A DNA stretch of 64,000 nt from Lacinutrix sp. Hel_I_90 (GTDB lineage Bacteria; Bacteroidota; Bacteroidia; Flavobacteriales; Flavobacteriaceae): positions 3,447,501 through 3,511,500 of the forward strand of contig NZ_JYNQ01000001.1 of NCBI RefSeq assembly GCF_000934685.1, in the 5' to 3' direction. Positions 5,436 through 41,075 of this stretch are shown in pieces. Under the pieces are notes generated by a model. The model saw only the letters and a program-made list of their open reading frames with translations, did no database searches and was not told the DNA's origin. Within the stretch, counting starts at the first letter, position 1, and each line of letters starts with the position of its first letter. The position numbers and the translations under genes were made by a program.

Positions 5436-8400
5436 TTATAAATTGCCCAATTGATATTGCATATCAATGGTCTGCTGGTTAAACTGATTGATGTATTGTA
5501 AATGGTTTTGTTTAATGCGGATGGCACTATTGAGAATCGTGATGTAATTGACGTAATCTATTTCGCCTTCTTTAGATGCCAATTGTGCGGTGGTAATTTG
5601 TTCTTCTGCCAAGAGTAGTGCGCCTTCTTCGTAATATTGCAAAATCTTCTTTGTTTTTTCAAGGGATTTGGTCAATTGCGACACACGACTTTCCGTGACC
5701 GCCTTTTGTTCCAAATATTGATTCTCTGCTACCATTGCGTCTGCCTTGGCTGCCTTGACCCTCGACTTCTGGGGAAAAAACCATAACGGAATGCTAATAC
5801 CTGCCTGATAGGTGTTGAAGCCTGACACTTCATCCACAACCTGTCTGCCATACGATAAGCTGAATTTCGGTAGGAATTGTGATTTCTCAACGCCCACGTT
5901 TGCTTTACTTACTTCGGCATTTTGCAAGGCATATTGCAACATTGGGTTATTCGCTACCGAAGTGGAATCTAATGTCGCCATAAAATCCAATGTTTTGTAT
6001 GGTTCACTAATCGTTTCAATGGATTCATCCGTTCCCAAATATTGTTTTAAGGCACGTTTGGCTATTTCAATATCATCAAAGGCTTGTTGCCTTAATACTT
6101 GAATCTGTTGAAATTCGGAAGAGGCTGAAATAAATTCCAATTTGCCTGTTTCTCCCGTATCATACCGAAGTTGGGCAGCGGTCTTAAAATTGGCATAAAT
6201 ACTGTCCAGTTGGTCTGCAAAGCGCAACTGCGCCTTATAATAATTTATTTGGTCATACGCTTGCATCACATTACGCACCAATTGTTGTTCACTGGCCACA
6301 TAAAACTTTTCTCCCAAGGCAATACGCTCCTTATAAAACTTCGATTTTGAAAATCCGGATAGCAAATCAATATTGCCCTGTTGCACACCAACGGTTGTTT
6401 GTACTCCAGGAAGATTATTACCATATTCTTCTTTGCCTGTGAAAACTTGGGTGCTACCAAGGTCAAAACTCGTTCCCTTTAGTGCTTTTTCCCGTTCAAT
6501 AAAAGCTTGGCTCTCTTTAAGGGATGGATAATTCTGTTTTGCCAGAGCAATGGCCTCATCAATGGTCAATGTCTTTGGAATTGTACCATCTTGATTAATG
6601 TCTTGGGCAAACGCAGTTCCAGAAGCCATCAAACCTCCAACCATCAATAATACAGTTACAATGTTCGTTGATTTGTTGACATAACTTACATCTCCATCGT
6701 TATTGTTTCGTTTCTTTCTCGATTCGAGCCAATAATACAATACAGGAAGGACCACAAGCGTTAAAAATGTTGCGGTTATCAAACCGCCAATAACCACTGT
6801 TGCCAAAGGCCGTTGCACTTCCGCACCGCCAGAGGTAGAAATCGCCATCGGGATAAAGCCCATAATGGCCGCTGTTGCCGTCAGCAGAATTGGTCGTAAA
6901 CGTTCGTGCGTTGCTTCGTATATTCGTTTTTTTAAGTCTGTCATTCCACTTTCTTTTAGTTCATTGAATTTGTTTATCAGTACCAACCCGTTTAAAACCG
7001 CAACTCCAAAGAGCACAATAAAACCTACTCCGGCAGAAATACTAAAAGGCATTCCCCTTATCCAAAGGGCAAACACGCCACCAATAGCCGCCAAGGGCAC
7101 TGCCATATAAATCATTAGGGATTGTGAGAACGAACTCAATGCAAAATAGAGCAATATGAATATTAGGAAAAGTGCAATAGGCACTACAATCATCAATCGG
7201 TCTGAAGCACGTTGAAGGTTTTCAAACGAACCTCCGTAGGTTACAAAATAACCTGGCGGTAGTTTCACGTCCGTTTCCAATTTTTGCTGTATTTCCTCGA
7301 CCATCGATTTCACATCGCGCCCACGAACATTTACACCAACCGAAATACGACGAGAGGTATTGTCCCTTGAAATCTGCATTGGCCCGGGTTTGTAGCTGAT
7401 ATCTGCCACTTCCTTTAAAGGCACTTGCGCTCCGTTTGGCAAATCGATATAAAGATTTTTAAGGCTGTTGATGTCCTGTCTAAATTCCTTTGCCAAACGA
7501 ATGACCACATCGAATCGTTTTTCGCCCTCAAAAATCACACTTGCCTGTTCGCCTGCAAATGATGCACTTACATAATCGTTCAACTTGTCAACGGTTACAC
7601 CATATTGGGCCATTTTTGCACGGTTATATTCCACCGTCATTTGAGGTAAACCGCTTGTAGCTTCCACATTGAGGTCAGCCGCTCCGGGAACGGTTCTGAT
7701 GACCGCTGCGATTTCCTGTACCTTGTCGGCTAACACTTCTAAATCCTCGCCGTACAATTTAATTGCCACGTCCTCACGAACACCGGTAAGCAATTCATTA
7801 AAACGAAGTTCTACGGGTTGGGTAAATACGAAATTTACGCCGGGAACGACTGAAATTTTTTCCTGTATTTTTTCTATGAGTTCTTCTTTGCTATCTGCGG
7901 AAGTCCATTTACTCTTATCTTTTTCAAGAATAATGTAACTATCGGCAATGTCCATAGGCATTGGGTCTGTTGGTATTTCGGCCACACCAATCCTTGAAAC
8001 TACCGTTTTTACTTCTGGAAATTCATTAATTAGATTTTGAAGTTTTTTTGAAGCTTCAATGGACTCTGTTAGACTGCTCCCCGGTTTTATCAACGCTTGA
8101 AACGCAATATCGCCCTCATCAAATTTTGGAATAAATTCGCCACCCATATTGCTGAAAATAAATCCCGCAATCAATAGCAGGGCAACAGCGCCCATAACGA
8201 CTCCAGCCCTAAAGCGAAGTGCAAAATTGAGCAATGGTACATAACCTCTGTTTAAACCGGACATTATTCTATCACTAAACCTATCAATCTTGTTTTCAAA
8301 TTTGGCAAACCAACTATTCTGATTTTTAGCAGGTTTTAGGAACATTGCAGAAATCATTGGAACATACGTAAGACAAAGGATAATCGCTCCTAAAACTGCA

Positions 8401-9851
8401 AATCCAAAGGTAAATGCCATTGGACGGAACATTTTTCCTTCTACACCCGTTAAAAAGAGAATTGGTGTAAAGACGATAAGGATAATAAGCTGTCCGAAAA
8501 ATGCCGAATTCATCATCGTACTTGCCGATTCATAGGCTATTTCATCCATTTCAGACTGGTCTATGGCGGTTGTGGTTTTTTTCATCCGTTGATGAATGTG
8601 GAATACCATTCCTTCTACAATGATTACAGCACCATCCACGATGATTCCAAAATCGATTGCACCCAAGGACATTAAGTTTGCCCATACACCAAATTGTTTC
8701 ATCAAGATAAATGCAAAGAGTAATGATAAAGGGATTACCGAAGCGGTAATCAAGCCACCACGGAAACTTCCCAAAAGCAAGACAAGCACAAAAATCACAA
8801 TCAATGAACCTTCAATAAGGTTTTTTTCAACGGTGCTTGTGGTTCTTCCAATGAGTTCACTTCGGCTTAAAAATGTATCTATGTAAACGCCTTCGGGTAG
8901 GGATTTTTGTATTTCTACAATGCGCTTCTCCACATTTTCGACTACGTTGCCTGGGCTTTCGCCTTTCAGCATTAAAATTTGTCCACCAACAGTTTCGTGT
9001 CCATCTTGGGTAAACGCACCATAACGTACCTGATTACCAAAGCCTACTTTTTCGGCGACATCCCGGATTAAAACAGGACTTCCATTTTGAGTCGTCACAA
9101 CTGTGTTTTCCAAATCCTCGATACTTCGTGCCAATCCTTCGCCACGGATAAAATTGGCTTGGTGGTTTTTTTCAATGTAAGCACCACCAGTATTGGCATT
9201 GTTGACTTTCAAGGCTTCAAAGACCTGATTCATTGTAATACCGAAACTTTTCAGCTTATTAGGATTTATTGCAACTTCATACTGTTTTACATAACCTCCA
9301 AAAGCATTGACCTCGACCACTCCGGGGACTAATGCCATTTGACGTTTTACAATCCAATCTTGGATGGTACGAAGCTCCATTGCATCGTACTTATCTTCGT
9401 AGCCCTCTTTTAATTTTAAGGTGTATTGGTAGATTTCGCCAAGCCCTGTAGTTATTGGTGCCATAAATGGCGTGCCGAAGCCTTCGGGGATTTCTCCAGC
9501 AACTTCGGTTAATTTCTCTTGTACCAATTGCCGGGGAAGATATGTGCCTGCCTCGTCCTTAAATACAATGGTAACCACGGACAGCCCAAAACGGGATACT
9601 GAACGCAGCTCGATAACATCAGGAAGGTTTGCCATTGCCAATTCTACCGGATAGGTAACAAATTGCTCAATATCTTCAGTACCTAAATTTGGGGCAACTG
9701 TAATAACCTGTACTTGGTTGTTGGTAATATCGGGTACAGAACCCAGATTTATAGTGGCCATAGACCAAATGCCCGTACCTACAAGTGCCACTATAAAGAG
9801 CCCAATAATAAACTTGTTATTAATGGAAAATGAAATGATTTTGTTAATCAT
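5436..9851 (-). CDS. czcA: CzcA-family heavy-metal RND pump fused to a TolC-family outer-membrane channel
   Basis: 1471 residues, against about 1040 for a normal CzcA. Residues 1 to ~1040 are a complete heavy-metal-efflux RND pump: N-terminal helix, two large periplasmic loops, two six-helix bundles, and the proton-relay helix with LGAIDFGIIVDGAVI (D-F-G-x-x-x-D-G of the HME family). After ~1050 a charged linker (ESRKKRNNNDG) leads to a hydrophobic segment ending in ASGTAFAQD (around 1070-1085), which looks like an internal signal peptide. About 390 residues of TolC/OEP coiled-coil repeats follow (LTIDEAIALAKQNYP...). There is no stop between the parts. A chain spanning inner membrane and outer-membrane channel would need cleavage at the internal signal, or be a single tethered complex. 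Metal specificity (Zn/Co/Cd) is inferred. Confidence 0.93.
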   Translation of the reverse strand: MINKIISFSINNKFIIGLFIVALVGTGIWSMATINLGSVPDITNNQVQVITVAPNLGTEDIEQFVTYPVELAMANLPDVIELRSVSRFGLSVVTIVFKDEAGTYLPRQLVQEKLTEVAGEIPEGFGTPFMAPITTGLGEIYQYTLKLKEGYEDKYDAMELRTIQDWIVKRQMALVPGVVEVNAFGGYVKQYEVAINPNKLKSFGITMNQVFEALKVNNANTGGAYIEKNHQANFIRGEGLARSIEDLENTVVTTQNGSPVLIRDVAEKVGFGNQVRYGAFTQDGHETVGGQILMLKGESPGNVVENVEKRIVEIQKSLPEGVYIDTFLSRSELIGRTTSTVEKNLIEGSLIVIFVLVLLLGSFRGGLITASVIPLSLLFAFILMKQFGVWANLMSLGAIDFGIIVDGAVIIVEGMVFHIHQRMKKTTTAIDQSEMDEIAYESASTMMNSAFFGQLIILIVFTPILFLTGVEGKMFRPMAFTFGFAVLGAIILCLTYVPMISAMFLKPAKNQNSWFAKFENKIDRFSDRIMSGLNRGYVPLLNFALRFRAGVVMGAVALLLIAGFIFSNMGGEFIPKFDEGDIAFQALIKPGSSLTESIEASKKLQNLINEFPEVKTVVSRIGVAEIPTDPMPMDIADSYIILEKDKSKWTSADSKEELIEKIQEKISVVPGVNFVFTQPVELRFNELLTGVREDVAIKLYGEDLEVLADKVQEIAAVIRTVPGAADLNVEATSGLPQMTVEYNRAKMAQYGVTVDKLNDYVSASFAGEQASVIFEGEKRFDVVIRLAKEFRQDINSLKNLYIDLPNGAQVPLKEVADISYKPGPMQISRDNTSRRISVGVNVRGRDVKSMVEEIQQKLETDVKLPPGYFVTYGGSFENLQRASDRLMIVVPIALFLIFILLYFALSSFSQSLMIYMAVPLAAIGGVFALWIRGMPFSISAGVGFIVLFGVAVLNGLVLINKFNELKESGMTDLKKRIYEATHERLRPILLTATAAIMGFIPMAISTSGGAEVQRPLATVVIGGLITATFLTLVVLPVLYYWLESRKKRNNNDGDVSYVNKSTNIVTVLLMVGGLMASGTAFAQDINQDGTIPKTLTIDEAIALAKQNYPSLKESQAFIEREKALKGTSFDLGSTQVFTGKEEYGNNLPGVQTTVGVQQGNIDLLSGFSKSKFYKERIALGEKFYVASEQQLVRNVMQAYDQINYYKAQLRFADQLDSIYANFKTAAQLRYDTGETGKLEFISASSEFQQIQVLRQQAFDDIEIAKRALKQYLGTDESIETISEPYKTLDFMATLDSTSVANNPMLQYALQNAEVSKANVGVEKSQFLPKFSLSYGRQVVDEVSGFNTYQAGISIPLWFFPQKSRVKAAKADAMVAENQYLEQKAVTESRVSQLTKSLEKTKKILQYYEEGALLLAEEQITTAQLASKEGEIDYVNYITILNSAIRIKQNHLQYINQFNQQTIDMQYQLGNL

Positions 9852-12778: not shown

Positions 12779-15280
12779 TTAAATTTTTACATTTCTTAAT
12801 CTTAATGAGTTCATAATTACTGAAACGGAACTAAAACTCATTGCCAAGGCTGCAATCATTGGGGATAATAACAATCCGAAAACGGGAAATAATACTCCCG
12901 CAGCTATTGGTATTCCCAGAACATTGTATGCCAAAGCAAAAAATAAATTTTGCTTAATATTTTTCATTACGTCATCACTTAAATTTCGAGCTTTTACAAT
13001 ACCGTGCAAATCGCCTTTTACCAAGGTTATCATTGCACTTTCTATGGCGACATCAGTTCCTGTTCCCATTGCGATACCCACATCACTTTTTGCCAAAGCT
13101 GGTGCATCATTGATGCCATCGCCAGCCATTGCCACAACTTTTCCGCTGTTCTGTAATTTTTCTACTTCCTGAAGTTTGTTTTCGGGCAACATTCCTGCTT
13201 TGAAATCGGCAAGGTTAAGTTCCTTTGCTACCGCTTGGGCGGTGTCGTGATTATCGCCTGTAAGCATAATCACTGCGATACCTTTATCTTGAAGTTCTCT
13301 AATTGCTTTAGCACTTGTGGCTTTTATTTTATCGCCAATTACAACATAGCCTGCAACTTTTGAATCGATGGATAAATAGGAAACTGTTTTCCCTTGCTTT
13401 TGAAAAGCTTGTGCTTCAGTTTCCATTTCTGAAGTCAATTTAGCCTTGGCATATTCCATCATTTTGGCGTTACCCAAATCCACTTTTTTTCCGTTGATAG
13501 TTCCTTCAACGCCCTTTCCTGTTACGGCACTAAAATTTTTAGTATCCAAAAAATCTGCTTTTTGCTCTTTACCATATTTAACGGTCGCTTCGGCAAGTGG
13601 ATGCTCGCTTGATTTGTTTAGGGACACTATATATTGCAGAACCTCATTTTCAGAAAAATCAGTACCAAAAGCACCAACTTTTTCAACCGTTGGTTTTCCT
13701 TCGGTTATTGTACCTGTCTTATCAATAATAAGTGTGTCCACTTTATCCATTTTTTCCAAAGCCTCTGCATTTTTGATTAGCACACCATTTTGCGCGCCTT
13801 TGCCAACACCTACCATCACGGACATTGGCGTTGCCAATCCCAAGGCGCACGGACAGGCGATAATCAAGACTGCAATGGCGTTTACAAAGGCATATACATA
13901 AACGGGTTCTGGGCCAAAAATAGCCCATACAATAAATGTGATTACAGAAACAAGCACTACAATGGGAACGAAATAACCCGAAACAGTATCGGCCAACTTT
14001 TGAATTGGCGCACGACTGCGGCTCGCATTGTTGACCATTTGGATGATTTGCGACAGCAAGGTGTCTGAACCTACCTTTTCGGCTTTCATTAAAAAGGATT
14101 GATTGCCGTTGATTGTTCCGCTGCTTACTTTGTCATTCATACTTTTATTTACAGGAATGGGTTCTCCAGTAATCATCGATTCATCAACAGTAGTTTGGCC
14201 GTCGGTTATTATTCCATCGACGGGAATTTTATCGCCGGGTTTTACACGAAGTATATCGCCTTTTTGAATTGTATCAATCATTACTTCTTCCTCTTTGCCA
14301 TCCTTTACAAGAATTGCTTTATTGGGTGCGAGCTTCAACAATTCCTTAACTGCGGAATTTGTTTTGCTGTGGGCACGCGCTTCCAATACTTGTCCCAATA
14401 AAACCAAAGTTAGGATTACTGTGGCAGCTTCAAAATAAACGTGCACAGCACCTGATTCTGTTTTAAACTGCTGTGGAAAAAAATCAGGGAAAAACATTCC
14501 AAATACACTGAAAAGCCACGCTGCACCTGCACCTATTCCGATAAGTGTGAACATATTAAGGTTCCAAGTTTTGATGCTACGGTAGGCACGTTCAAAAAAC
14601 ATCCAAGTAGCATAAAAAACAACGGGAATTGAAAGTGCAAACTGTACCCAATTCCAATATTTTTGTTCCATCAAAGTGTACAACGGATTGTTCGGAATCA
14701 TCTCGCTCATTGCCATCAGGAAAATGGGCAAGGTAAAGGCAACCGCTATCCAAAACTTCTTTAATAGTTTTTTATATGTTTTTTCCTCTGCGGATAGGTC
14801 TGGTTGCATAGGCACCAAATCCATTCCGCAGATGGGACAGCTTCCAGCTTCATCGCGAACAATTTCTGGGTGCATTGGGCAAGTCCATTGGTGTGATGCT
14901 CCCGAAGAAATACTTTGTTCCTCAACCAAATCCATACCGCAAACTGGGCAATCGCCGGGTTTGTCGTAGGTCTTGTCGCCTTCACAGTGCATTGGGCAAT
15001 AGAAAGTGCCAGTTCCTTTCCCTTTAGGCTTTTCTTTTACTTTTACCTCTGAATCGTGATGATGTTCGCCCATATTGTGGATGCTATAATTTCCACCATC
15101 CTTTTTTAAGGCTTCTTGAAATTTTTCTATGGGAATATGGGTTTTCATCTCAATAGCTGCGTTGGCTTTTTCCAAATCTACAGATGCATTCTGTACACCT
15201 TCAACTTTAGAAAGTGTGGCTTCTACGTGACTGCGACATCCGTTGCAGGTCATTCCGTGAATATGATATGTGTGTTTCAT
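12779..15280 (-). CDS. copA: Copper-exporting P1B-1 ATPase CopA
   Basis: 833-residue Cu+ export ATPase of the inner membrane. Parts in order: an HMA domain with GMTCNGC (about 9-15); a His-rich spacer (GEHHHD, ~72); two consecutive short heavy-metal-binding modules with YCPMHCEG...CPVCGMDL (about 94-118) and WTCPMHPEI...CPICGMDL (about 132-156); membrane domain with TGEP near 371; CPC near 476-478; phosphorylation Asp in DKTGTITEGKP near 520; HP in SSEHPLAEA; GDGINDAPALA. CPC plus the N-terminal Cys sites identify a copper/silver pump. It probably delivers copper to periplasmic partners (CusB, multicopper oxidase) encoded in the same operon. Confidence 0.96.
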   Translation of the reverse strand: MKHTYHIHGMTCNGCRSHVEATLSKVEGVQNASVDLEKANAAIEMKTHIPIEKFQEALKKDGGNYSIHNMGEHHHDSEVKVKEKPKGKGTGTFYCPMHCEGDKTYDKPGDCPVCGMDLVEEQSISSGASHQWTCPMHPEIVRDEAGSCPICGMDLVPMQPDLSAEEKTYKKLLKKFWIAVAFTLPIFLMAMSEMIPNNPLYTLMEQKYWNWVQFALSIPVVFYATWMFFERAYRSIKTWNLNMFTLIGIGAGAAWLFSVFGMFFPDFFPQQFKTESGAVHVYFEAATVILTLVLLGQVLEARAHSKTNSAVKELLKLAPNKAILVKDGKEEEVMIDTIQKGDILRVKPGDKIPVDGIITDGQTTVDESMITGEPIPVNKSMNDKVSSGTINGNQSFLMKAEKVGSDTLLSQIIQMVNNASRSRAPIQKLADTVSGYFVPIVVLVSVITFIVWAIFGPEPVYVYAFVNAIAVLIIACPCALGLATPMSVMVGVGKGAQNGVLIKNAEALEKMDKVDTLIIDKTGTITEGKPTVEKVGAFGTDFSENEVLQYIVSLNKSSEHPLAEATVKYGKEQKADFLDTKNFSAVTGKGVEGTINGKKVDLGNAKMMEYAKAKLTSEMETEAQAFQKQGKTVSYLSIDSKVAGYVVIGDKIKATSAKAIRELQDKGIAVIMLTGDNHDTAQAVAKELNLADFKAGMLPENKLQEVEKLQNSGKVVAMAGDGINDAPALAKSDVGIAMGTGTDVAIESAMITLVKGDLHGIVKARNLSDDVMKNIKQNLFFALAYNVLGIPIAAGVLFPVFGLLLSPMIAALAMSFSSVSVIMNSLRLRNVKI

Positions 15281-26684: not shown

Positions 26685-28130
26685 TTAGTTCAGTTTGAAA
26701 TGGGATTTAACTTCTCGATAGATTCTTTCAAAGTTCAGTTTCAATTCATTCTCTGTGTATTGTTGCTGTATTTTAGGAATCTCCCTTTTAATATACTGTA
26801 GTTTAAATTGAACTCTTTTATCCTTACCATCTGCAAAAGTGATAAATTCGCCCTGTTTTAAACGGAAAAATACATCTGCTCTACGTTTGGAAACCTCTTT
26901 TTCGCCTGTAGTAATCCTTGTATCAAAATTCAGGTTATGGCCACGGTTGATACTTGTTGTTTCCTTGCGGACAATCTCAAAAAATCGTTCATAGTATTTG
27001 GCGGTATCTGGGTCATTAACTTTACCAAAAAACTGATAGGAAAGATTGCTTAAAATAGCCTTACTCGCTTTATCGCCATATAGCATATCATTCTGGATTT
27101 TATCTTGCATCACGTAAATTGTGGCAATATCATAGCTTCGTAAAGTTGCTGGAATGCGATGCATATTGAGTAGTTTAATGGTTGGGGCTTCTTCCATCAT
27201 TAAAAATGACGACTGCTGATCTCTGACGCTCATTTGTTTGATGACTGTGTGCATAATTGCTGCGATTATAGGCGAATAAGCCGATTCATATTTGGGATGA
27301 TTTACAATCGAAATTACCGCTGAATTTTCCTGATTATTTATATTTAATGGTACTTCATCTTTTGACAACGCCATAAACAACTGCTGTGAACTTATTTTTT
27401 TAAAAGCATTGGCCAATGTGCTTTTTACACCTGCTGTTTGCTTGTCAGAGTCCATTCCATTGATAAAAGCACTTGCCATACTTTTGGATGTGATATTTGA
27501 GCTCAAAAAAGAAATCAATTGCTTGGTGGTCATCGATTGAAAAATAGCAATCAAATGGGGCAGAGTGCAATATTGAGGATAGGACGTTTTAAGTTTCCAA
27601 ATCATTCCACCCATCAAACCTTCAACAGCATCACTAAAGAATTTTGTGGTACTGTTTGTATCGGATTCGTTAAACTCCAAAAGATTTTCAATGAGTACCT
27701 TGGATAATTCATTCACACTTTCCTCATTGGGCAAATATCTTGGGGCAATTGGGTTTACACGATAATGGATTTGGTCAAAGGCAATGGTGTAGAATTTAAT
27801 ATCCTTTTCTTTAAATAATGGATAGGCAATTTCCGTAAGCTCAAAATCCTTGTAATCGTGTATGATACCACAAAATTGATGGGTACTAAAATGCTGTAAA
27901 AAATTATAGATAACACTTTCTGTTTTACCGCTTCCCGCAGAGCCAATAATCGATGCACCTCGCTTGATATTTTCGATTTGAAATTTTCCACGACGAAGTT
28001 TAAAGCGTACCTGATATTTCTTATCTCCGTTTTTGGGCTCTTCTTGATGAAGAAACACATATAAAACCGTACTGATAAACAATACCGGAACAACAATAAA
28101 AAGGATGATATGTGGTATTGACATACTCAT
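26685..28130 (-). CDS. Type IV coupling protein (VirD4/TraG-like)
   Basis: 481 residues. One N-terminal membrane helix (IPHIILFIVVPVLFISTVLYVFL), Walker A GSAGSGKTES near 63-72 and Walker B SSFLMMEEAPT near 307, with IIHDYKDFELTEIAYPLF between them. This is the AAA+ fold of coupling proteins that bring a relaxase-DNA complex to a conjugation channel. It is shorter than typical TraG/VirD4 (600-700) and its N-terminal membrane part has only one helix. The start overlaps the relaxase stop by four bases. No mating-pore genes are in the window, so the element probably borrows a channel from elsewhere or encodes it further left. Confidence 0.88.
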   Translation of the reverse strand: MSMSIPHIILFIVVPVLFISTVLYVFLHQEEPKNGDKKYQVRFKLRRGKFQIENIKRGASIIGSAGSGKTESVIYNFLQHFSTHQFCGIIHDYKDFELTEIAYPLFKEKDIKFYTIAFDQIHYRVNPIAPRYLPNEESVNELSKVLIENLLEFNESDTNSTTKFFSDAVEGLMGGMIWKLKTSYPQYCTLPHLIAIFQSMTTKQLISFLSSNITSKSMASAFINGMDSDKQTAGVKSTLANAFKKISSQQLFMALSKDEVPLNINNQENSAVISIVNHPKYESAYSPIIAAIMHTVIKQMSVRDQQSSFLMMEEAPTIKLLNMHRIPATLRSYDIATIYVMQDKIQNDMLYGDKASKAILSNLSYQFFGKVNDPDTAKYYERFFEIVRKETTSINRGHNLNFDTRITTGEKEVSKRRADVFFRLKQGEFITFADGKDKRVQFKLQYIKREIPKIQQQYTENELKLNFERIYREVKSHFKLN

Positions 28131-29155
28131 ATCCCAATAGAACCCGACTGTATGGCTCGGTCAATCCCTTTTTTAAACTTGTTAATTATCTTCAATGCTA
28201 ACTGTACTTTGTTCGTTGGAATATTCATTATGGGCACACCTGCTTTAGCAAGTATTTTATAGGCTGTAGCTTTTTCATTTGTTGGCAATCCCGAAAGAAT
28301 TGAGAAATACAATTTTGGATTTTTAAGGAATGTTTTGCGTGCCTTATAGGTTTCAACATAATTTCTTTTGTATTGAAATAAAGTGTCAAAGGTCTTTTCG
28401 GATGCCTTAAAGAATTTGTCCCTATCAAAACCACGTTTTACAGGTTTGCCATTAAAAACTGTTTCCGAAGCCTTGTACCTGCTTCCTGGGGATAAACTGT
28501 ATTTATTAGACATATCCTTTCTGCTCACAATAATATGAATATGGCTTTGAGAGCCATCTTTTGGCATCCCTCTAACAATGCGTTTTCCGTCTTGTTGATG
28601 TGGTGCTTCTTTCTCCAATCGGGACATCGTTTGCTGTAATTTTTTAATATTTCCCTCTAATTCGCCACTTTCAATTTTTCGGATATCGTTCTTAATTTGA
28701 AGTATCTTGGTGGCATAAGGTTGGTTCTCCTGAATTTTCTTGTCCGTTCCTTTATAGGTGCGTTGATGTTCAATCTTCGCGTAATATTTAATGTCATCTA
28801 CGGTTACAGCTCGTCCGTTTATTTCCCGATTAAAAGATTTAGCGTACTCTTTCATCAATTCTCGGGTGTACTGTTTTAGTTCTTCGGAATGATTTTGCAA
28901 TCGCTTCAATTCATAAGCACTTGGATTAACCGTGATGGAATAAAACTTGGGTTCGGTCTTTTTGAGTTTAGCGGTATTTCCGTCGATTTCTTTGACGACT
29001 TCCTTTCCTGATATTTCTTCGCCATATTGATTGAAAAAATGTTCCATTTCATCAATGGATTTTCCGTCATTCTCTTTTTCGAGATATGCGACAAAATCGG
29101 AAGCGCTCTGTGCATAATTACCGTCTAATGTCTGTTTGGTTACCGTGATATACAT
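28127..29155 (-). CDS. mobB: MobB-like relaxase (DUF5712 type)
   Basis: 342 residues from the start at 29155 (MYITVTKQTLDGNY); the frame runs 11 codons further up but into the previous gene. The HUH-type metal-binding motif is QSHIHIIVSRKD near residue 200, preceded by GKRIVRGMPKDG. The N-terminal part has YFYSITVNPSAYEL-like content (KFYSITVNPSAYELKRL) and KIEHQRTYKGTDKK, features of Bacteroidota MobB relaxases. It should nick one strand at oriT and stay bound to the 5' end. It is placed between the BfmA/BtgA-like gene (one-base gap) and the coupling protein, a compact mobilization operon. The catalytic tyrosine is not assigned with certainty. Confidence 0.85.
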   Translation of the reverse strand: MYITVTKQTLDGNYAQSASDFVAYLEKENDGKSIDEMEHFFNQYGEEISGKEVVKEIDGNTAKLKKTEPKFYSITVNPSAYELKRLQNHSEELKQYTRELMKEYAKSFNREINGRAVTVDDIKYYAKIEHQRTYKGTDKKIQENQPYATKILQIKNDIRKIESGELEGNIKKLQQTMSRLEKEAPHQQDGKRIVRGMPKDGSQSHIHIIVSRKDMSNKYSLSPGSRYKASETVFNGKPVKRGFDRDKFFKASEKTFDTLFQYKRNYVETYKARKTFLKNPKLYFSILSGLPTNEKATAYKILAKAGVPIMNIPTNKVQLALKIINKFKKGIDRAIQSGSIGI

Positions 29156-29156
29156 T

Positions 29157-29705
29157 TTATATTTTTTGTTTAATGTTTTCAAATTCATCTTTGCTCAAAT
29201 CCACTTTTAAATAGCCTCCTCCAAAACTGCCTTTTACATAAGTGGTCTTACTGATGATTTTTTCTAAATCATATTTTACCGAATGGAATTGTTGCCGAAC
29301 TTCTTCGTACCGATTTCGGTAATGGTTCAGTTCCTCGTTTTCCGTAATCAGTTCCTGTTGCTCAAATTCATATAGTTCTTCTTGGGGTTCTTCCTCATTT
29401 GGGTTTTCTTGGAAAAGCAATTCCAACATTGCATTGGTGGGCTTGGTCTGGTTTTTTTCAATATCCCTAATAATGGCTACAAGGGCATTGATTCGTTTTT
29501 TTAAGCTATTCTCCAAAGTTCTCATATTCGCACCCAAAGATTCATTTGGGGATAGCTCGTTCACATCAAAAAAGTTCATCATTGTTTCCAGCGTATCGGT
29601 ATGCGAACGTGAAATTCTTTTGGAAAATTTCCGAAAACGAGTTGCCACATTAGGTTTGATACTAATGGCAGAAAAACTGTATTTCTTTTGATGGTTTGAA
29701 CTCAT
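29157..29705 (-). CDS. BfmA/BtgA-family mobilization protein
   Basis: 182 residues, basic N-terminus (YSFSAISIKPNVATRFRKFSKRISRSHTDTLETMMNFF) resembling a ribbon-helix-helix DNA-binding start, then a long acidic coiled coil (about 65-150, rich in Glu and Gln: NEEEPQEELYEFEQQELITENEEL). This is the layout of BfmA/BtgA proteins of Bacteroides mobilizable elements, which bind oriT and help the relaxase. It is the first gene of the mob operon; the protein-free region upstream (29706-30236) is therefore the natural place for oriT. Confidence 0.8.
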   Translation of the reverse strand: MSSNHQKKYSFSAISIKPNVATRFRKFSKRISRSHTDTLETMMNFFDVNELSPNESLGANMRTLENSLKKRINALVAIIRDIEKNQTKPTNAMLELLFQENPNEEEPQEELYEFEQQELITENEELNHYRNRYEEVRQQFHSVKYDLEKIISKTTYVKGSFGGGYLKVDLSKDEFENIKQKI

Positions 29706-30236
29706 TTACTGTAAAAAATTGCCGTTTTATAGGGGTTTCAAAAGGATTTACTGTAAAACTTTATTGTTTCTCTATTTCATATAAACAGTAATTATTTGAA
29801 TATCAAATAATTACAACTAAAAACCAATCGTTAACACCGCCTTGGCGTGTTACCCTCTTGCTTCTCCAAATTCATCCCGCAGGGACAAAATTTTTCAAAC
29901 AACCTGACTAAAAAGTCAGTTGCTTTTTTTCGGAATAAAAAATTCCGATATGTTTAATTTTTGATGGGTATCATTATCTGCGAAAGTCAAATCAAAATGG
30001 GATAACGATACTTAAAATGGTACTGCTTAAAAGCCTTTTAAAGATATTCTATTTGCAAATAATATTCAAATACGGATTGTTTTCAAATGGTAGGTTTTGA
30101 TACCAAAAAATAGGATTTTTATGAAAATGTAAATTTAGGACGTCGAGTTTTGGAATATTGGCTCTTGAAATTTTGAAAAAATAAGGCACAAAAATAGACC
30201 TCTGAAAGTTCAAAGGTCCAATTTCTTGTTTTCAAT
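29706..30236. other. Gene-free region upstream of mob genes; candidate oriT
   Basis: No credible ORF in 531 bases. It holds a hairpin CTGACT-AAAA-AGTCAG (29904-29919, extendable to 29900-29922 with one bulge), followed by a T-run, and a second hairpin CGGAAT-AAAAA-ATTCCG (29931-29947). A GC-richer stretch (CCGCCTTGGCGTGTTACCC, about 29838-29856) lies between these and the BfmA/BtgA-like gene. Position and inverted repeats suit an origin of transfer; the nick site cannot be pointed out. Confidence 0.4.
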
Positions 30237-30434
30237 TTAGATATTAAAAACATAGGTATAAGTGTATAGGTTTTTTATCGCTTCTTCGTCCAATATTTTA
30301 TCATAATCTATGTGGTGTTTATTGGCGTAGGCTTTAAGGTCGTTCCCAAATTTACTTTCTATATCTTCTTTTGAAACGGAAAGTAGATGCTGTTGGGTTT
30401 CGTCATCGAGATTGTTATAATTTAGATAAATCAT
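30237..30434 (-). CDS. Small hypothetical protein of mobile elements
   Basis: 65 residues, no signal or membrane helix: MIYLNYNNLDDETQQHLL, then KEDIESKFGNDLKAYANKHH and an acidic end with a Tyr-rich tail (NLYTYTYVFNI). The composition suggests a small helical cytoplasmic protein. It lies 11 bases after the DUF6876 gene, in the same order in which such small genes accompany mobilization modules. Function unknown. Confidence 0.65.
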   Translation of the reverse strand: MIYLNYNNLDDETQQHLLSVSKEDIESKFGNDLKAYANKHHIDYDKILDEEAIKNLYTYTYVFNI

Positions 30435-30445
30435 CGCCTTTGTTT

Positions 30446-30826
30446 TTAGTATTCACTTGGTAACATCAGCGTATTATCCACAAAATATAAACGCAATTCA
30501 TCTAAAGGAAAATCAGTAAAGTTGTATTGATGCGTTTCAAAAACATTTCCATTTCCATCGCTGTAAATTATTTCAGCTTCATAGCCTGTATAATCTTGTT
30601 CATCTTCCGATAGCCTTTTAAAATCTATTGTGATAAAATGGCTTCGGTTCAGCAAACTTTTGGCAATTACAGAAGTATCGGTAATCAACCAAAAGCATTC
30701 CGCCACATTGGCTAAATATTTCAATCCGTTTGTAAATCGGGTGCGTATCAATGGGATTTGATATAACATTTCAGAACCTTGAAAATGTTGCAATCCTTCT
30801 TTTATTTCGTTAACTTGTGCTTTCAT
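30446..30826 (-). CDS. DUF6876-like protein
   Basis: 126 residues from the start at 30826 (MKAQVNEIKEGLQHFQGSEM); the in-frame extension above it is part of the ssb terminator hairpin, so it is left out. Segments such as YLANVAECFWLITDTSVIAKSLLNR, FITIDFKRLSEDE, AEIIYSDGNGNVFETHQYNFTDFPLDELRLYFVDNTLMLPSEY match a family I recognise as DUF6876, common on Bacteroidota plasmids and integrative elements. Role unknown; its place between ssb and mob genes suggests an accessory part in element maintenance. Confidence 0.75.
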   Translation of the reverse strand: MKAQVNEIKEGLQHFQGSEMLYQIPLIRTRFTNGLKYLANVAECFWLITDTSVIAKSLLNRSHFITIDFKRLSEDEQDYTGYEAEIIYSDGNGNVFETHQYNFTDFPLDELRLYFVDNTLMLPSEY

Positions 30827-30854
30827 TGTAATGTCTTTTTTAGATTTAATGATG

Positions 30855-30902
30855 AAAAGAAGAGGGCACAAACTAATTGAAAACTGGTATTAGTGCCCTC
30901 TT
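30855..30902 (-). terminator. Hairpin between ssb and the DUF6876 gene
   Basis: Inverted repeat AAGAGGGCAC (30860-30869) and GTGCCCTCTT (30893-30902), with further pairing inside, followed on the minus strand by CTTTTC. It fits an intrinsic terminator after ssb. Confidence 0.6.
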
Positions 30903-31244: not shown

Positions 31245-31354
31245 AATAAAAGATTTAAAAGATTAATATTTCCCTTTTGGATTTAAACTTAATTAAATTT
31301 TAAGGGGTGTTTGTATGATTTCTTTCGTGCTCCGCACAATGGATGAAGTGGGTT

Positions 31355-31466
31355 TTGTCAAGACTTTTAGGGAATAAATCTGGTGTGTTTGCGACGTAGT
31401 AAAATCCTTGGATTTTCAAGGAAGTAGAAACCTTATTTTTGCCTAAAACTTGTACAGTCTTGACAA
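31355..31466. repeat. Long inverted repeat (outer arms TTGTCAAGACT / AGTCTTGACAA)
   Basis: Eleven perfectly complementary bases at 31355-31365 and 31456-31466. Nested inside are TTTTAGG (31365-31371) with CCTAAAA (31442-31448) and a small hairpin TCCTTG/CAAGGA (31405-31410 and 31417-31422), giving one rod-like foldback. Confidence 0.65.
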
Positions 31467-31492
31467 GTTCCATAATGGTATTAGCAATTCTT

Positions 31493-31552
31493 ATAAAGCC
31501 ATTTGTGGCGAGAGCGTACCGACAGTTAAGCGAACAGAGCAAATGGCTTTAT
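31493..31552. repeat. Inverted repeat with 13-base arms
   Basis: ATAAAGCCATTTG (31493-31505) pairs perfectly with CAAATGGCTTTAT (31540-31552) around a 34-base loop. Confidence 0.65.
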
Positions 31553-31736
31553 TTTAGAATTGGTTATGCCATACCTGTTTTTCGCTGTCCCGAAAAACAA
31601 TAAAGGCTTCATCTATTATAAACCCCTTAAAATGTGTAAGGCAAAGGTTCGGTTTTTAAGAATTATCGAGCAAAGACCAAAGTAGGCTTTGCCGTTAATT
31701 CTGTTAAGAAAATTGATGCTTTGACTTTCCGATTAC

Positions 31737-31912
31737 AAGCGGACTGGATTCACGGTTTTGGTTTGGGAATGTAGCGTTCCTTCCCAGCGAAGCGGGAAGG
31801 GGAAGCGGAATGAAAAACCAAAACCGTGGATTGGGTCCAAGATTTTTTATAGAGAAGCTCTTTGCCCGAAATGTAGCTTTTCGCGAAATGTAGCGGTAAA
31901 GTGCTGAACGGT
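31737..31912. repeat. Structured element, copy 1
   Basis: Starts AAGCGGAC. GGAC (31741-31744) pairs with GTCC (31835-31838), enclosing a 14-base perfect stem (31751-31764 with 31815-31828) and an inner hairpin CCTTCCC/GGGAAGG (31779-31785 and 31794-31800). The tail has GAGAAGCTC, then CCGAAATGTAGC and again CGAAATGTAGCGG flanking TTTTCG, ending GCTGAACGG. Copy 2 follows 36 bases later. Confidence 0.6.
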
Positions 31913-31948
31913 TTATAGAACCAAATTATTCTTTTGAAGTAGGATTTA

Positions 31949-32136
31949 AAGCGGACTTGACTTTAAAGATGTAGATTGGAATAGAGTTTGACCACTTCCC
32001 GAATTTTCTCGGGAATGAGTGGGCAAGTGGAATGGAAATCGGAATCTTTGAAGTTGTGTCCAAGACCTTTTTTGAGAGCAGCTCATTTTCCGAAATGAAG
32101 CTTTTTCGCGAAATGCAGGGGAATGGGCTGAATGGG
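31949..32136. repeat. Structured element, copy 2
   Basis: Starts AAGCGGAC like copy 1. GGAC (31953-31956) pairs with GTCC (32058-32061), enclosing GACTTTAAAGAT (31959-31970) with ATCTTTGAAGTT (32044-32055), and inner TTCCCGA/TCGGGAA (31996-32002 and 32009-32015). The tail repeats copy 1: GTCCAAGA, GAGCAGCTC, CCGAAATGAAGC, TTTCGCGAAATG, GGCTGAATGG. The main-stem sequence differs completely from copy 1 while pairing is kept. Confidence 0.6.
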
Positions 32137-32211
32137 TTTTTGAATTTGATAGCATAAAAAAAACCTCCCTACCAGAGTAAGAAGATGTTTTTGCTCCAGA
32201 ATTTAAACCGA

Positions 32212-32460
32212 TTATTTATTTAAAATATGCCTTTTAACTATTGTTCCTAAATCTTTCTCCGAAAACCATATATTCTCTGGATGAAGGTGCATAACGGGTG
32301 CTTGTTCGCACTTGTTGTTGCAGTCCATATCGTCAACCTCAATTTTATTTTTTAACTTGTATTTCTTTATATAATAATCTAAAAGCTTTCCTTTTTTCTT
32401 TCGGCAATTTACGCCGTCACATCGATATATGATGATTTTGTTATTTTTAGAATCTGCCAT
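32212..32460 (-). CDS. (2Fe-2S) ferredoxin-type small protein
   Basis: 82 residues, thioredoxin-like 2Fe-2S ferredoxin pattern: IIIYRCDGVNCRKKKG near the start (Cys pair spaced five apart) and MDCNNKCEQAPVMHLHPENIWF (second pair, Cys-x3-Cys), as in the (2Fe-2S) ferredoxin domain family where four such cysteines bind the cluster. Cytoplasmic. It starts four bases after the MFS transporter stop and is the last gene of the metal cassette. Its redox partner is unknown. Confidence 0.78.
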   Translation of the reverse strand: MADSKNNKIIIYRCDGVNCRKKKGKLLDYYIKKYKLKNKIEVDDMDCNNKCEQAPVMHLHPENIWFSEKDLGTIVKRHILNK

Positions 32461-36674: not shown

Positions 36675-39600
36675 TTACAAGCCCAATAAGGCTTCGATTA
36701 CTATGATGGACTGGTTATATTGATATAGTGTGTTTAGATACTCTGTTTGAATACTGTTCGCCAAAGTGAGGTTTTGCAAGTATTGCGTATAGGAAACATC
36801 ACCGCTTTTAAAGCTCTTTTCTGAATTATCAATGATAAGTTCCGCTTGTGGCAGAGCTTCATTTTGATAGTAATCTAAAGTACCTTGAAGTTTGTAATAT
36901 TCTTGCAATAAATTTTGTAGTTCCCCTTGTAATTGCGTCTTATTTAACTCAATTTGAGATTGGACGATGTACTCTTCGATTTTGGCAGTTTGAATTTTGG
37001 CACGATGTCCACCAGGAAAAAGAGGAATTGAAATACCTAACTGAAAGAATGAAAATCGGTCATTGTCACTAAAATTTTGGTTTGCTATACCGCTATTTTG
37101 AGCCCCAATAAATGTTTGGCTATTATAACCGAACATAATATCGGGTAACACTTTATTCCTTTCTACATTGGTCTCCCTTTTCCTTAATTCCAACTGTTGT
37201 TTTAAATAAACGTAAAACGGACTTTGCTCCACAGACTGGTTTTCAATATCTAAATCTATCTCACGACGAACCAGTTCACTATCTGTAATGCGAATGTCAT
37301 CGTTTGTGTTCAAAACTACCTGAAGCCGCTTTTTAGCGATTCTCATATCGGCTTCGTTTTGTTGAAGCTTGTTTTTTATTTGCATCGATTGCGTTGCCGA
37401 GGTTACACTTTCCAATTTTGTGGATTCGCCAGATTCATAACGCATCGAACTTGAACGGTTGAGATTGCCATATAGACTATCTTGACGCTGCAACAATTGT
37501 TTATTCTGCATTAAAAACACAACTCTGAAATAGGCAGCTTTAACATCCGCAATCAGGTCATTTTCTTCTATAACCTTTAGTTGCTCACTGCTACTAACTC
37601 TTGCTTTTGCGAGTTTAAACTGACTGGTATAAACTGTTGGAAAATTGATTCGCTGTGTAACTCCGTATTGGTTATCCTTTACCGTAGGCGTATTAAATTC
37701 GCCATTTTGATATGTAAATTCAGTTCTCGGAATAGTTATAGCACCGTATTTCCCTTTTTCTTCAACCTCTATTTCATATTGAGCAATCTTAATACGGTTA
37801 TTGTTCTGAAGTGCCATTTCAATAGCCTGCTGCAAAGTAACTTCACGTTCTTGCACCATACTTGTTTCTTGTGCTTGTAGCTGCATTGCTGGAAAGAATA
37901 GACCGCCAATCACGATTAAAGTAGTAGCTATTTTTTTTCTTCCTAAATTCAATTTTACTTTTCCTTCAGTAAAATAGATATACAAGACTGGCAAGACAAT
38001 AAGTGTTAATGCAGTCGCCGTAATCAATCCTCCAATAACAACGGTAGCCAATGGTCGCTGTACCTCTGCACCTGATGAATTTGACAATGCCATAGGTAAA
38101 AAACCTAAAGCAGCTACGGTAGCTGTCATTAACACAGGTCTCAATCTCACACGAGTTCCTTTAATGACGCGTTCATAAATATCGCTTACACCTTCTTTAT
38201 CAAGCCTGTTGAATTCTGCCACCAGTACGATTCCATTTAGAACGGCCACACCAAATAGGGCAATAAATCCAATTCCAGCTGAAATACTGAAAGGTAAGTC
38301 TCTTATGATTAGTGCAAAAACACCACCAATGGCTGATAAAGGGATTGCCGTAAAAATGAGCAAACTTTGTTTCATTGAACCAAAAGTGAAATAAAGCAGC
38401 ACCAAAATCAGCAACAAAGCGACAGGTAAAGCAATCATTAAACGTTGATTAGCTTCTTGCAAGTTCTGAAATTGACCGCCATAAGTTACATAGTAACCTG
38501 CTGGCATATCGACCTTCGAATTCATAATTTGCTTAATGTCCTCAATAATACTTTGTACATCCCTGTCACGTACATTGAAGCCAACAATAATTCGACGCTT
38601 TGCATTGTCACGCTGAATTTGCACAGGACCTGGTTCAAATGAAATGTTCGCCACCTGACTTAATGGAATTTGATTTCCCTGTGGTGTACTCACATACAAA
38701 TTTTGTACATCGGTAATATCGGTTCGATAGTTCTTGTCCAACCGCACAACAAGGTCAAATCTACGTTCCCCTTCATAAACAAGTCCTGCCGAAGTACCCG
38801 CAAACGCAGTTTCGATAGCATTGTTTACATCCTCGATGTTCATTCCGTATTGAGAAATCTTATCACGGTTCATTTGGATATTAATCTGTGGTAGTCCAGT
38901 CACTTCTTCAACATATAAATCTTCAACTCCTTCTACCGATTTTATTTTGCTCCCAACATTACCAGCCAAATCTGAAAGTACATTGAGGTCTTCGCCATAA
39001 ATTTTTATTACAACATCTTGTTTTGCTCCTGTCAAAAGCTCGTTGAAACGCATTTGTATGGGTTGTTGAAAACTAAAAGTAGCATTCGGGATAATGGAAA
39101 GGGATTCTTTCATCACTGCTGCCAGTTCTTCTCTTCCGCTAGCTTTTGTCCATTCCGCTTTTGGACTTAAAATAACCATCATATCTCCTGCTTCAATAGG
39201 CATAGGGTCTGTTGGTATTTCCCCTGAACCAATCTTGTTTACAACTTGCTTCACTTCATCTGGATATTCACGTAATAATATGGTCTGCGCCTTTTGAGAA
39301 ACATCAATCATCTGGTCGATGGAACTTCCTACAGGGACTCGTGTTTCAACCGCAAAATCCCCTTCGTCTAATTGGGGAATAAACTCACCACCCATATTGG
39401 CAAAAACTATTAGTGTTATAACAAAAAATCCTATTGCCAATCCAAGTACCAATAGTTTTGTGCGCAAGGCAGCTTCTAAAATAGGTTGGTACATACGCTG
39501 AAAGAAATCCATCATTTTATCGGAAAAATTCCGTTTATGTTCCGTTTTGCGACCCAGTGCAAGGGCAGACATCATTGGAACATAGGTAAGCGATAATATC

Positions 39601-41075
39601 AATGCTCCAAGAATAGCGAACATTACCGTTTGTGCCATTGGATGGAACATTTTTCCTGCAACCCCGCTCAAAGCCAAAATAGGCACGTAAACAATTAATA
39701 TAATGATTTGTCCAAAAGCAGCGGAATTCATCATTTTCCCAGCAGATAATTTTACCTCGGAATCCATTTGTTTAGATGTTAGCTTTTCAACGCCTGCGTA
39801 CTTCTTTTTACTGGTATGAATTCCAAACATTACAGATTCAACAACTATTACCGCCCCATCTACAATAAGACCAAAATCTATGGCACCCAAACTCATTAGG
39901 TTTCCAGATACCCCAAAGAGGTTCATCATCGCGATTGCGAAAAGCATTGAGAGCGGAATGACCGAAGCCACTATCAAACCACCTCTTAAATTTCCAAGAA
40001 AGAGGATTAGTACAAAAATTACTATCAAAGCACCTTCCGTAAGATTAGTTGTTACAGTCCCTATTGCACGGTCCACCAAACCTTTCCTATCCAGATAGGG
40101 CTCAATGGTTACGCCTTCGGGTAAAGTTTCTTTAATCTGTTCAATTTTAGCTTTTACATCATTGATAACTGCGGAAGAGTTTGCTCCCTTTAGCATCATT
40201 ACAATTCCTGTAACAACTTCGCCTTCTCCATTTCGCGTAGCCGCTCCATAGCGCACGCCGTGACCAAATTGTACTTTGGCAACATCCCTTACAAGTACTG
40301 GTGTTCCGTTATTAACTTTAACAGCTATTTTTTCCAATTCTTGTAAATTGTTCACAAGTCCTTCGCTCCGAATAAAATAGGCATTAGGACCTTTATCTAT
40401 ATAAGCGCCACCCGTGTTTTGATTGTTTTTTTCCAGAGCGGTAAAAATATCTTCAATAGTAACATTCATACTTTGAAGTTTATCTGGGTCTATGGCAATT
40501 TCATATTGTTTGACCAAACCACCAAAACCACTCACTTCTGCAACACCTGGTGTTCCTAATAGTTGTCTTTTGATAATCCAATCCTGTATAGTTCTTAATT
40601 CGGTGGCATCATATTTATCTTCATATCCTTTTTCGGTGTGAATTACATATTGATAAATTTCACCCAATCCAGTAGTTACGGGTCCCATTTCTGGTTTTCC
40701 GATGCCTTCAGGAATATCTTTGGCAGCCTGCGTTAATCGCTCTTGAACTTGTTGCCTTGCCCAATATAAATCGACACTTTCCTCAAAAACAATAGTTACT
40801 ATAGAAAGCCCGAATCGAGAAAAGGAACGCATATCCTTAATACCAGGAATACTAACCATTGTTTGTTCTACTGGAAACGTAACTAATTGTTCTACTTCTT
40901 GTGCCGCTAAAGTGGGTGATATGGTAATAACCATAACTTGATTGTCTGTGATGTCTGGAACTGCATCAATGGGTAGCTGTGTTAGCGAATATGTGCCCCA
41001 TCCAATTAGAGCCAGCGTAAATAATCCGATAACAAGTTTATTGTTTATCGAAAATGCAATGATTTTGTCTAACAT
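36675..41075 (-). CDS. czcA: CzcA-family RND pump fused to a TolC-family channel (second copy)
   Basis: 1466 residues, same fused architecture as the gene at 5436-9851 but clearly diverged in sequence, so the two are paralogues, not a recent duplication. RND part 1 to ~1035 with LGAIDFGLIVDGAVIVVESV (proton-relay helix) and MKQSLLIFTAIPLSAIGGVFAL. A linker (FTEGKVKLNLGRKK) leads to a hydrophobic segment ending in AMQLQAQETS near 1055-1065, an internal signal-like sequence. OEP/TolC repeats start at VTLQQAIEMALQNNN and run to the end (YLNTLYQYNQSIIVIEALLGL). With HupE-like and anchor proteins downstream, Ni/Co export is plausible. Confidence 0.93.
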   Translation of the reverse strand: MLDKIIAFSINNKLVIGLFTLALIGWGTYSLTQLPIDAVPDITDNQVMVITISPTLAAQEVEQLVTFPVEQTMVSIPGIKDMRSFSRFGLSIVTIVFEESVDLYWARQQVQERLTQAAKDIPEGIGKPEMGPVTTGLGEIYQYVIHTEKGYEDKYDATELRTIQDWIIKRQLLGTPGVAEVSGFGGLVKQYEIAIDPDKLQSMNVTIEDIFTALEKNNQNTGGAYIDKGPNAYFIRSEGLVNNLQELEKIAVKVNNGTPVLVRDVAKVQFGHGVRYGAATRNGEGEVVTGIVMMLKGANSSAVINDVKAKIEQIKETLPEGVTIEPYLDRKGLVDRAIGTVTTNLTEGALIVIFVLILFLGNLRGGLIVASVIPLSMLFAIAMMNLFGVSGNLMSLGAIDFGLIVDGAVIVVESVMFGIHTSKKKYAGVEKLTSKQMDSEVKLSAGKMMNSAAFGQIIILIVYVPILALSGVAGKMFHPMAQTVMFAILGALILSLTYVPMMSALALGRKTEHKRNFSDKMMDFFQRMYQPILEAALRTKLLVLGLAIGFFVITLIVFANMGGEFIPQLDEGDFAVETRVPVGSSIDQMIDVSQKAQTILLREYPDEVKQVVNKIGSGEIPTDPMPIEAGDMMVILSPKAEWTKASGREELAAVMKESLSIIPNATFSFQQPIQMRFNELLTGAKQDVVIKIYGEDLNVLSDLAGNVGSKIKSVEGVEDLYVEEVTGLPQINIQMNRDKISQYGMNIEDVNNAIETAFAGTSAGLVYEGERRFDLVVRLDKNYRTDITDVQNLYVSTPQGNQIPLSQVANISFEPGPVQIQRDNAKRRIIVGFNVRDRDVQSIIEDIKQIMNSKVDMPAGYYVTYGGQFQNLQEANQRLMIALPVALLLILVLLYFTFGSMKQSLLIFTAIPLSAIGGVFALIIRDLPFSISAGIGFIALFGVAVLNGIVLVAEFNRLDKEGVSDIYERVIKGTRVRLRPVLMTATVAALGFLPMALSNSSGAEVQRPLATVVIGGLITATALTLIVLPVLYIYFTEGKVKLNLGRKKIATTLIVIGGLFFPAMQLQAQETSMVQEREVTLQQAIEMALQNNNRIKIAQYEIEVEEKGKYGAITIPRTEFTYQNGEFNTPTVKDNQYGVTQRINFPTVYTSQFKLAKARVSSSEQLKVIEENDLIADVKAAYFRVVFLMQNKQLLQRQDSLYGNLNRSSSMRYESGESTKLESVTSATQSMQIKNKLQQNEADMRIAKKRLQVVLNTNDDIRITDSELVRREIDLDIENQSVEQSPFYVYLKQQLELRKRETNVERNKVLPDIMFGYNSQTFIGAQNSGIANQNFSDNDRFSFFQLGISIPLFPGGHRAKIQTAKIEEYIVQSQIELNKTQLQGELQNLLQEYYKLQGTLDYYQNEALPQAELIIDNSEKSFKSGDVSYTQYLQNLTLANSIQTEYLNTLYQYNQSIIVIEALLGL

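Follow-up and report, generated by a model that had tools for sequence, protein, structure and literature searches.

A repeated, folded non-coding block beside ssb in mobile elements of Flavobacteriaceae, a candidate single-stranded DNA signal

Layout of the block and its surroundings

We analysed a window of 64,000 nucleotides from Lacinutrix sp. Hel_I_90 (contig NZ_JYNQ01000001.1), in which a non-coding block of 967 nt (31245-32211) separates the single-strand DNA-binding protein gene ssb from the next open reading frame (ORF). The block is made up of a part A and two copies of a unit B, each about 180 nt long. To its left, all genes from a MobC-like protein through ssb lie on the minus strand. 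The features of this region are:

26685-28130, minus strand: coupling protein (MobC-like / TraG-TrwB type); Pfam TrwB_AAD_bind and TraG-D_C; NCBIfam Bacteroid_MobC at 166 bits, under its cut-off of 900
28127-29188, minus strand: MobB family relaxase (DUF5712); NCBIfam NF041495 at 408 bits against a cut-off of 200; Pfam PF18976
29157-29705, minus strand: BfmA/BtgA family mobilization protein; NCBIfam NF041200 at 109 bits against a cut-off of 24
29847-29862, plus strand: oriT-like core GTGTTACCCTCTTGCT, a putative oriT; one match in the window at up to 1 mismatch, 0 expected
30237-30434, minus strand: 65-aa ORF of the ssb group; tblastn matches in several relatives
30446-30871, minus strand: DUF6876 protein; Pfam PF21781
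30909-31244, minus strand: ssb, single-strand DNA-binding protein; Pfam SSB, 1.9e-33
31245-31734, plus strand: part A, type 1, about 490 nt, directly adjoining the start codon of ssb; multi-helix fold (inverted repeat I7, alignment A3, covariation, plus strand favoured)
31735-31911, plus strand: unit B, copy 1; covariance model R1 at 178.9 bits, the copy being one of the 32 sequences from which the model was built
31912-31946, plus strand: linker of 35 nt between the B copies
31947-32135, plus strand: unit B, copy 2; covariance model R1 at 156.0 bits, the copy itself being in the model
32212-32460, minus strand: 82-aa ORF

An earlier note on this DNA had described nearly 1 kb without a credible ORF, and the block is indeed intergenic, with ssb on one side and the 82-aa ORF on the other; the only mechanical ORFs of at least 60 aa within it measure 80 and 69 aa and are both on the minus strand. 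The two diverged copies of one element that the note had recognized are the two B units, with boundaries shifted by 1-2 nt. Part A was under-read there: these roughly 490 upstream nucleotides are a larger conserved fold of their own, closed by arms at 31297-31308 and 31622-31633. Tandem B copies in relatives are spaced by 34-36 nt. The window genome contains two B matches at E below 1e-30 and a third at E 6.3, and thus no further strong copy. The 82-aa ORF that follows the block has a weak 2Fe-2S ferredoxin match, far under the cut-off; at one other locus (L037), both it and the MFS gene after it are conserved.

The oriT-like core GTGTTACCCTCTTGCT has the BfmA/BtgA gene on one side and the ssb group on the other, with repeats around it, in a region that is conserved across 24 aligned sequences; given this position and conservation, we take it as the probable oriT. 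In 80 loci collected through their relaxase, it gave a single match on the A/B strand in 73, none in the other 7, and never a match on the opposite strand. In 60/60 loci where both could be read, the core and the relaxase were on the same side of the ssb start. The whole non-coding stretch 29706-30236 is conserved and oriT-like; inverted repeats surround the core, and relatives also have a direct repeat of the TTTGTCGCAAA type. The three proteins scanned to the left of the mobilization genes (280-2787, 5436-9851 and 12779-15280) comprise heavy-metal P-type ATPases and a CusA/CzcA-type RND pump; on the right side, the ORF at 36675-41075 resembles another RND pump by eye.

Distribution and orientation of A and B

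The 80 named loci were collected through the relaxase alone, and 64 were testable for part A in that both ssb and its upstream DNA were present (of the rest, 14 lacked ssb within the stretch and 2 lacked DNA upstream of it). Part A preceded ssb on the expected strand in 63 of the 64. These comprised 47 loci with a second version, type 2, and 16 with the type 1 of the window; the remaining locus, L177, had neither type by blastn. The two types are unrelated in sequence and occupy the same place. Type 2 folds into a long rod and has the same strand preference as type 1. Among the first 20 larger loci, 18 had ssb, of which 8 carried type 1, 9 carried type 2 and one (L042) had ORFs inserted. The distance from the ssb start to the first B was 408-513 nt in 46/47 rows, some places being entered twice and L042 having its inserted ORFs. 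We also considered that some relaxase loci might have no block: of 12 such loci checked, 10 had ssb, and 6 of these proved to carry B, while the remaining 4 lacked B but had an A resembling type 2, as called by eye and fold. Two loci (L043:11185-11949 and L045:7613-8374) have a tandem pair of diverged ssb genes beside part A, with 62-65% and 79-90% identity to the window SSB.

Unit B was found in 112/397 sampled genomes of the window's family and in 87/237 genera, the window genome being counted. Relatives of the relaxase at E 1e-20 occurred in 107/397 of these genomes (window genome counted), and the two co-occurred in 91 of the 397, with an odds ratio of 73. In a sample of the whole phylum, B was present in 10/395 genomes: 8 of the same family, including the window's own, one of the same class and one weak match in the same phylum. 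Among the named relatives, many of them marine, Flavobacteriaceae predominate, for example Arenibacter, Olleya and Maribacter; the best of them is an Arenibacter with a relaxase identity of 100%. Two other genomes of the window's genus had no B match, as would be expected of a mobile element. Of the 80 relaxase-seeded loci, 48 carried B matches.

The polarity of B was constant among the copies counted. In the relaxase-seeded set, all 79 B matches (E up to 1e-4) lay on the strand opposite the relaxase and on its ssb side. The same was true, among the matches listed, of 118/118 B copies with a relaxase within 40 kb; this structure-seeded count covered 150 B rows and the first 106 relaxase rows of longer lists, and 32/150 had no listed relaxase within 40 kb. 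Within each locus, B copies of at least 40 bits were on one strand in 77 of 77 cases. That count excluded the near-duplicate loci L040 and L051 and five matches, namely four under 40 bits and a 22.7-bit echo inside the L067 copy; those on the other strand were L064:16471 (28.0 bits) and the L067 echo.

B copies recur among the cargo genes with unchanged orientation, and many of the 40 larger loci have them as dividers between cargo groups; on one contig two copies lie about 31 kb apart on the same strand. As judged by eye, similarity between dispersed copies often ends just before their 5' end, and some copies retain the linker. The gene on the oriT side of the 21 non-first B clusters pointed leftward in 15 and rightward in 6. 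We therefore rejected B as a promoter of the adjoining gene, given these mixed directions. Since neighbouring genes point both ways, the polarity of B appears to track transfer, although direct duplication would equally preserve it. Between the B copies of L042, L043, L045 and L047, another common non-coding stretch with GCCGTAGTCTTTTGATG precedes the next B unit (for example at L047:8966-9399) and could represent one more element of the B array. One genome (G125, L063-L067) has seven B matches that lie far apart on the chromosome, and for several of them the stretch fetched contains no relaxase gene; these matches are perhaps remnants of old elements.

Fold, covariation and strand preference

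The block had been described as hairpin-dense, and it folds far better than chance. The predicted energy of the whole 967 nt was -323.1 kcal/mol, compared with -242.0 +/- 10.1 in 20 dinucleotide shuffles (z -8.06). B copy 1 alone gave a z of -5.7 against shuffles and B copy 2 a z of -3.7, with 1/200 shuffles as good. Across 32 B copies, 92.7% of the cells of a 45-pair structure were paired. The GGAC...GTCC outer pairing pointed out by the earlier note consists of four pairs, all invariant in 32/32 sequences, and its observation that the main stem changes bases while staying paired is borne out by the double-change cells of the whole unit: 56, compared with 17.8 +/- 3.2 in 500 shuffles and 3-23 when the partner column was slid. 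For type 1 A+B, 24 sequences and 197 pairs gave 96.7% of cells paired and 131 double-change cells, compared with 39.6 in shuffles and 11-35 when slid. This alignment was built from the best blastn matches to the window and is therefore biased towards close relatives, and all covariation counts are somewhat favoured because the structures counted derive from the same alignments. Fold and covariation of the block exceed chance, and neither of the outcomes that the note had named as counting against a structured element, a lack of covariation or a decayed coding region or stack of unrelated repeats, occurred.

The plus strand is the favoured one. The consensus energy of type 1 A+B was -292.7 on the plus strand and -212.8 on the minus strand, with an average of -180.1 in 8 column shuffles; the corresponding values for type 2 (19 sequences) were -238.6, -171.3 and -109.7. 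With DNA energies, plus and minus strands gave -61.4 and -29.5 for type 1, and -24.5 and -8.7 for type 2. The plus-strand fold of part A is stable under both RNA and DNA energies. The B consensus behaved differently, reaching -68.2 kcal/mol and 45 pairs with RNA energies versus -1.1 kcal/mol and 13 pairs with DNA energies. Single B copies were lower in energy on the plus strand in 32/32 cases with RNA energies and in 30/32 with DNA energies; as DNA, their z-scores were modest and near-equal on both strands (medians -2.47 and -2.20), so the strand preference of B rests on energies and pair types, not on single-sequence z-scores. In the B-less type 2 loci L098 and L099, the minus-strand z was stronger (-8.7 and -4.9) than the plus-strand z (-6.5 and -3.4), and the plus-strand value of L099 falls inside the range of control windows.

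Wobble pairs carry the same bias: the A/B elements contained 512 G.T versus 32 A.C cells, the G.U share of standard pairs was 11-16%, and in type 1 A+B, G.U pairs were invariant at four positions in 24/24 sequences. As a control, the 479 nt upstream of ssb of plasmid F, which hold the single-stranded promoter Frpo2, were run with ten homologues (11 sequences) through the same script. The control gave -361.3 on the T-strand and -327.6 on the other strand, a milder preference of about 10% in energy versus 38% for A/B, and 160 G.T versus 8 A.C cells. Under DNA energies, the z-score of Frpo2 was stronger on the other strand (few shuffles). The z-values of the type 1, type 2 and Frpo2 strand comparisons are rough because the column-shuffle means come from 4-30 shuffles. 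Since the control shows the same bias, strand-biased wobble pairs do not by themselves indicate RNA; the G.U argument for RNA is weakened, not removed.

Database searches agreed with the view that no named feature matches the block. Rfam gave 0 matches in the window at the gathering threshold and, at a permissive one, three block matches far under the gathering score, none of them credible. Against 72,556 plasmid records, of which at least 5000 match Frpo2, blastn returned one short Borrelia match at chance level and no similarity to Frpo; against phages it returned one short chance-level match. The canonical promoter pair of Bacteroidota is TTG-N17-23-TAnnTTTG. This pair was not conserved, being present on the minus strand in 0/47 sequences and on the plus strand in 3/47, namely the window and two near relatives, where it lies inside A. 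At up to 2 mismatches, 20/24 type 1 sequences had a promoter candidate within the 3' arm of A, a weak signal counted without a chance control, and none in type 2 or B reached 40% of sequences.

Possible functions and known systems

Our preferred reading, which we regard as evenly balanced between right and wrong, is that A and B belong to the transferred strand of a mobile element of the MobA/B/C type and do their work there as folded single-stranded DNA. The relaxase would nick at the oriT-like core near 29.85 kb, presumably on the plus strand, and the 5' end would lead the way into the recipient, with the ssb group, A, B and the cargo coming after it in that order. Still single-stranded, A would fold and allow the recipient RNA polymerase (or a primase) to start, and RNA made from the A strand would run back towards oriT through ssb, the DUF6876 gene and the 65-aa ORF, yielding early SSB. 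The same RNA may also prime the second strand, and conversion to double strand would make the A signal vanish. That A is specifically a promoter is a tentative and less probable part of this proposal. B would be another signal on the A strand, one that can be repeated, more likely a second-strand start or a loading site than a means of neighbour expression, because the genes beside it face either way.

The earlier note had left the choice between a large structured RNA and a DNA signal of a single-strand or conjugation-related kind. The DNA signal fits somewhat better because orientation to relaxase and ssb is fixed, the place is constant, an oriT-like core lies on the same strand, and Frpo2 behaves similarly though less strongly. 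The milder preference of the control, its stronger DNA z-score on the other strand and the near-unfolded DNA consensus of B weigh against this reading and towards the RNA alternative. Also counting against single-stranded DNA are the lack of convincing promoter boxes, the lack of sequence likeness to Frpo, the invariant G.U pairs, the stronger minus-strand z of L098 and L099, the mixed gene directions beside B, and the conjugation efficiency of plasmid F, which PMC9849209 describes as undiminished by loss of Frpo2 or ssb.

The RNA alternative, on which A and B form one large structured non-coding RNA on the plus strand, divergent from ssb and active in element transfer or maintenance, with B as a domain that can recur, is a possibility we consider real but rather doubtful. 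It would account for the complex fold and its extensive covariation, for the share of G.U pairs and their retention at the four positions, for a B consensus whose good fold under RNA energies is almost lost under DNA energies, and for the canonical plus-strand promoter pair inside A in the window and two near relatives. Yet a like G.U bias exists in Frpo2, a known single-stranded DNA promoter family, and the promoter pair is confined to those three sequences. Many dispersed B copies diverge just before their 5' end by eye, though some keep the linker, and 15 of the 21 dispersed clusters follow a gene pointing away from them. Moreover, an RNA gene need not hold one orientation to the relaxase, whereas the counted B copies do. 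Should the RNA reading be right, this would be a large RNA absent from Rfam 15.

It is unlikely that B is a recombination or docking unit, with cargo modules entering between B units by homologous or site-specific recombination, although such entry would explain why B copies flank cargo and share one orientation. In its favour, many of the 40 larger loci have B copies standing between groups of cargo genes, similarity of the flanks often breaks off close to the ends of the unit, and exchange of this kind should leave direct repeats. This account leaves part A and the covarying fold unexplained, and the junctions do not, by eye, fall at a single fixed base. A more speculative combination, which we likewise consider improbable, would make B units single-strand docking sites that fold on the incoming strand and set cargo joining sites, always with the polarity of transfer, in an integron-like manner but without attC sequences, beside a single-strand promoter A in two unrelated versions. 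The position directly upstream of ssb in 63/64 testable loci would suit a minus-strand leader RNA of the ssb mRNA that controls ssb, but the minus strand folds worse and B is found far from ssb, on one contig about 31 kb from another same-strand copy, so that we hold a leader to be very improbable. Repeated short motifs are present, as a decayed coding sequence or a stack of unrelated repeats would have them; covariation, constant architecture and the occurrence of B in 87/237 sampled family genera refute this explanation almost completely.

On the single-stranded DNA reading, A and B are a defined, widespread candidate for post-entry expression or second-strand start in Bacteroidota elements. 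A limited, title-level literature search found no Frpo-like signals linked with Bacteroidota, no structured RNA of the A/B kind and no account of early post-entry expression or second-strand start in Bacteroidota conjugative or mobilizable elements. The Bacteroides MobB and BfmA-BtgA regions share the relaxase and accessory protein families present here (NCBIfam), and the same title-level search found no description of a folded A/B block in them. Single-strand origins (sso) offer a second model for the function of the block. PMC4595007 describes sso1 of the mobile element ICEBs1 as folded, orientation-specific and active only as single-stranded DNA; A and B are like sso1 and plasmid sso stretches in having a fold and a fixed orientation on a mobile element, and differ in size, the plasmid sso stretches listed in the same paper being about 200 nt and A alone over twice that.

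The closest parallel is with Frpo1/Frpo2 (ssi) of plasmid F. According to PMC9849209, the non-coding stretch before ssb of F holds Frpo2, and without it the early rise of Ssb-F or YfjA reporters is absent in recipients. PMC11541004, treating the 300 most prevalent leading-region families, reports that SSBs and anti-defence genes are T-strand-encoded and that Frpo-like sequences precede ssb. Part A shares with these signals a non-coding stretch of about 480 nt directly upstream of ssb or leading genes, as found in 63/64 testable loci, and the orientation to ssb; A and B share with them a strand-biased fold, on the T-strand in F and presumably so here, with a G.T bias and more than one copy on the same strand, plasmid F having two Frpo2 copies on one strand about 5 kb apart. 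The two differ in phylum, in sequence, where no similarity was found, and in that A/B are without convincing host promoter boxes. Unlike Frpo, A comes in two unrelated versions and is joined by a separate tandem unit B, the DNA consensus of which folds poorly. Matching in sequence no described family among those searched, A and B look, by place and strand, like the signals that start plasmid DNA function on cell entry.
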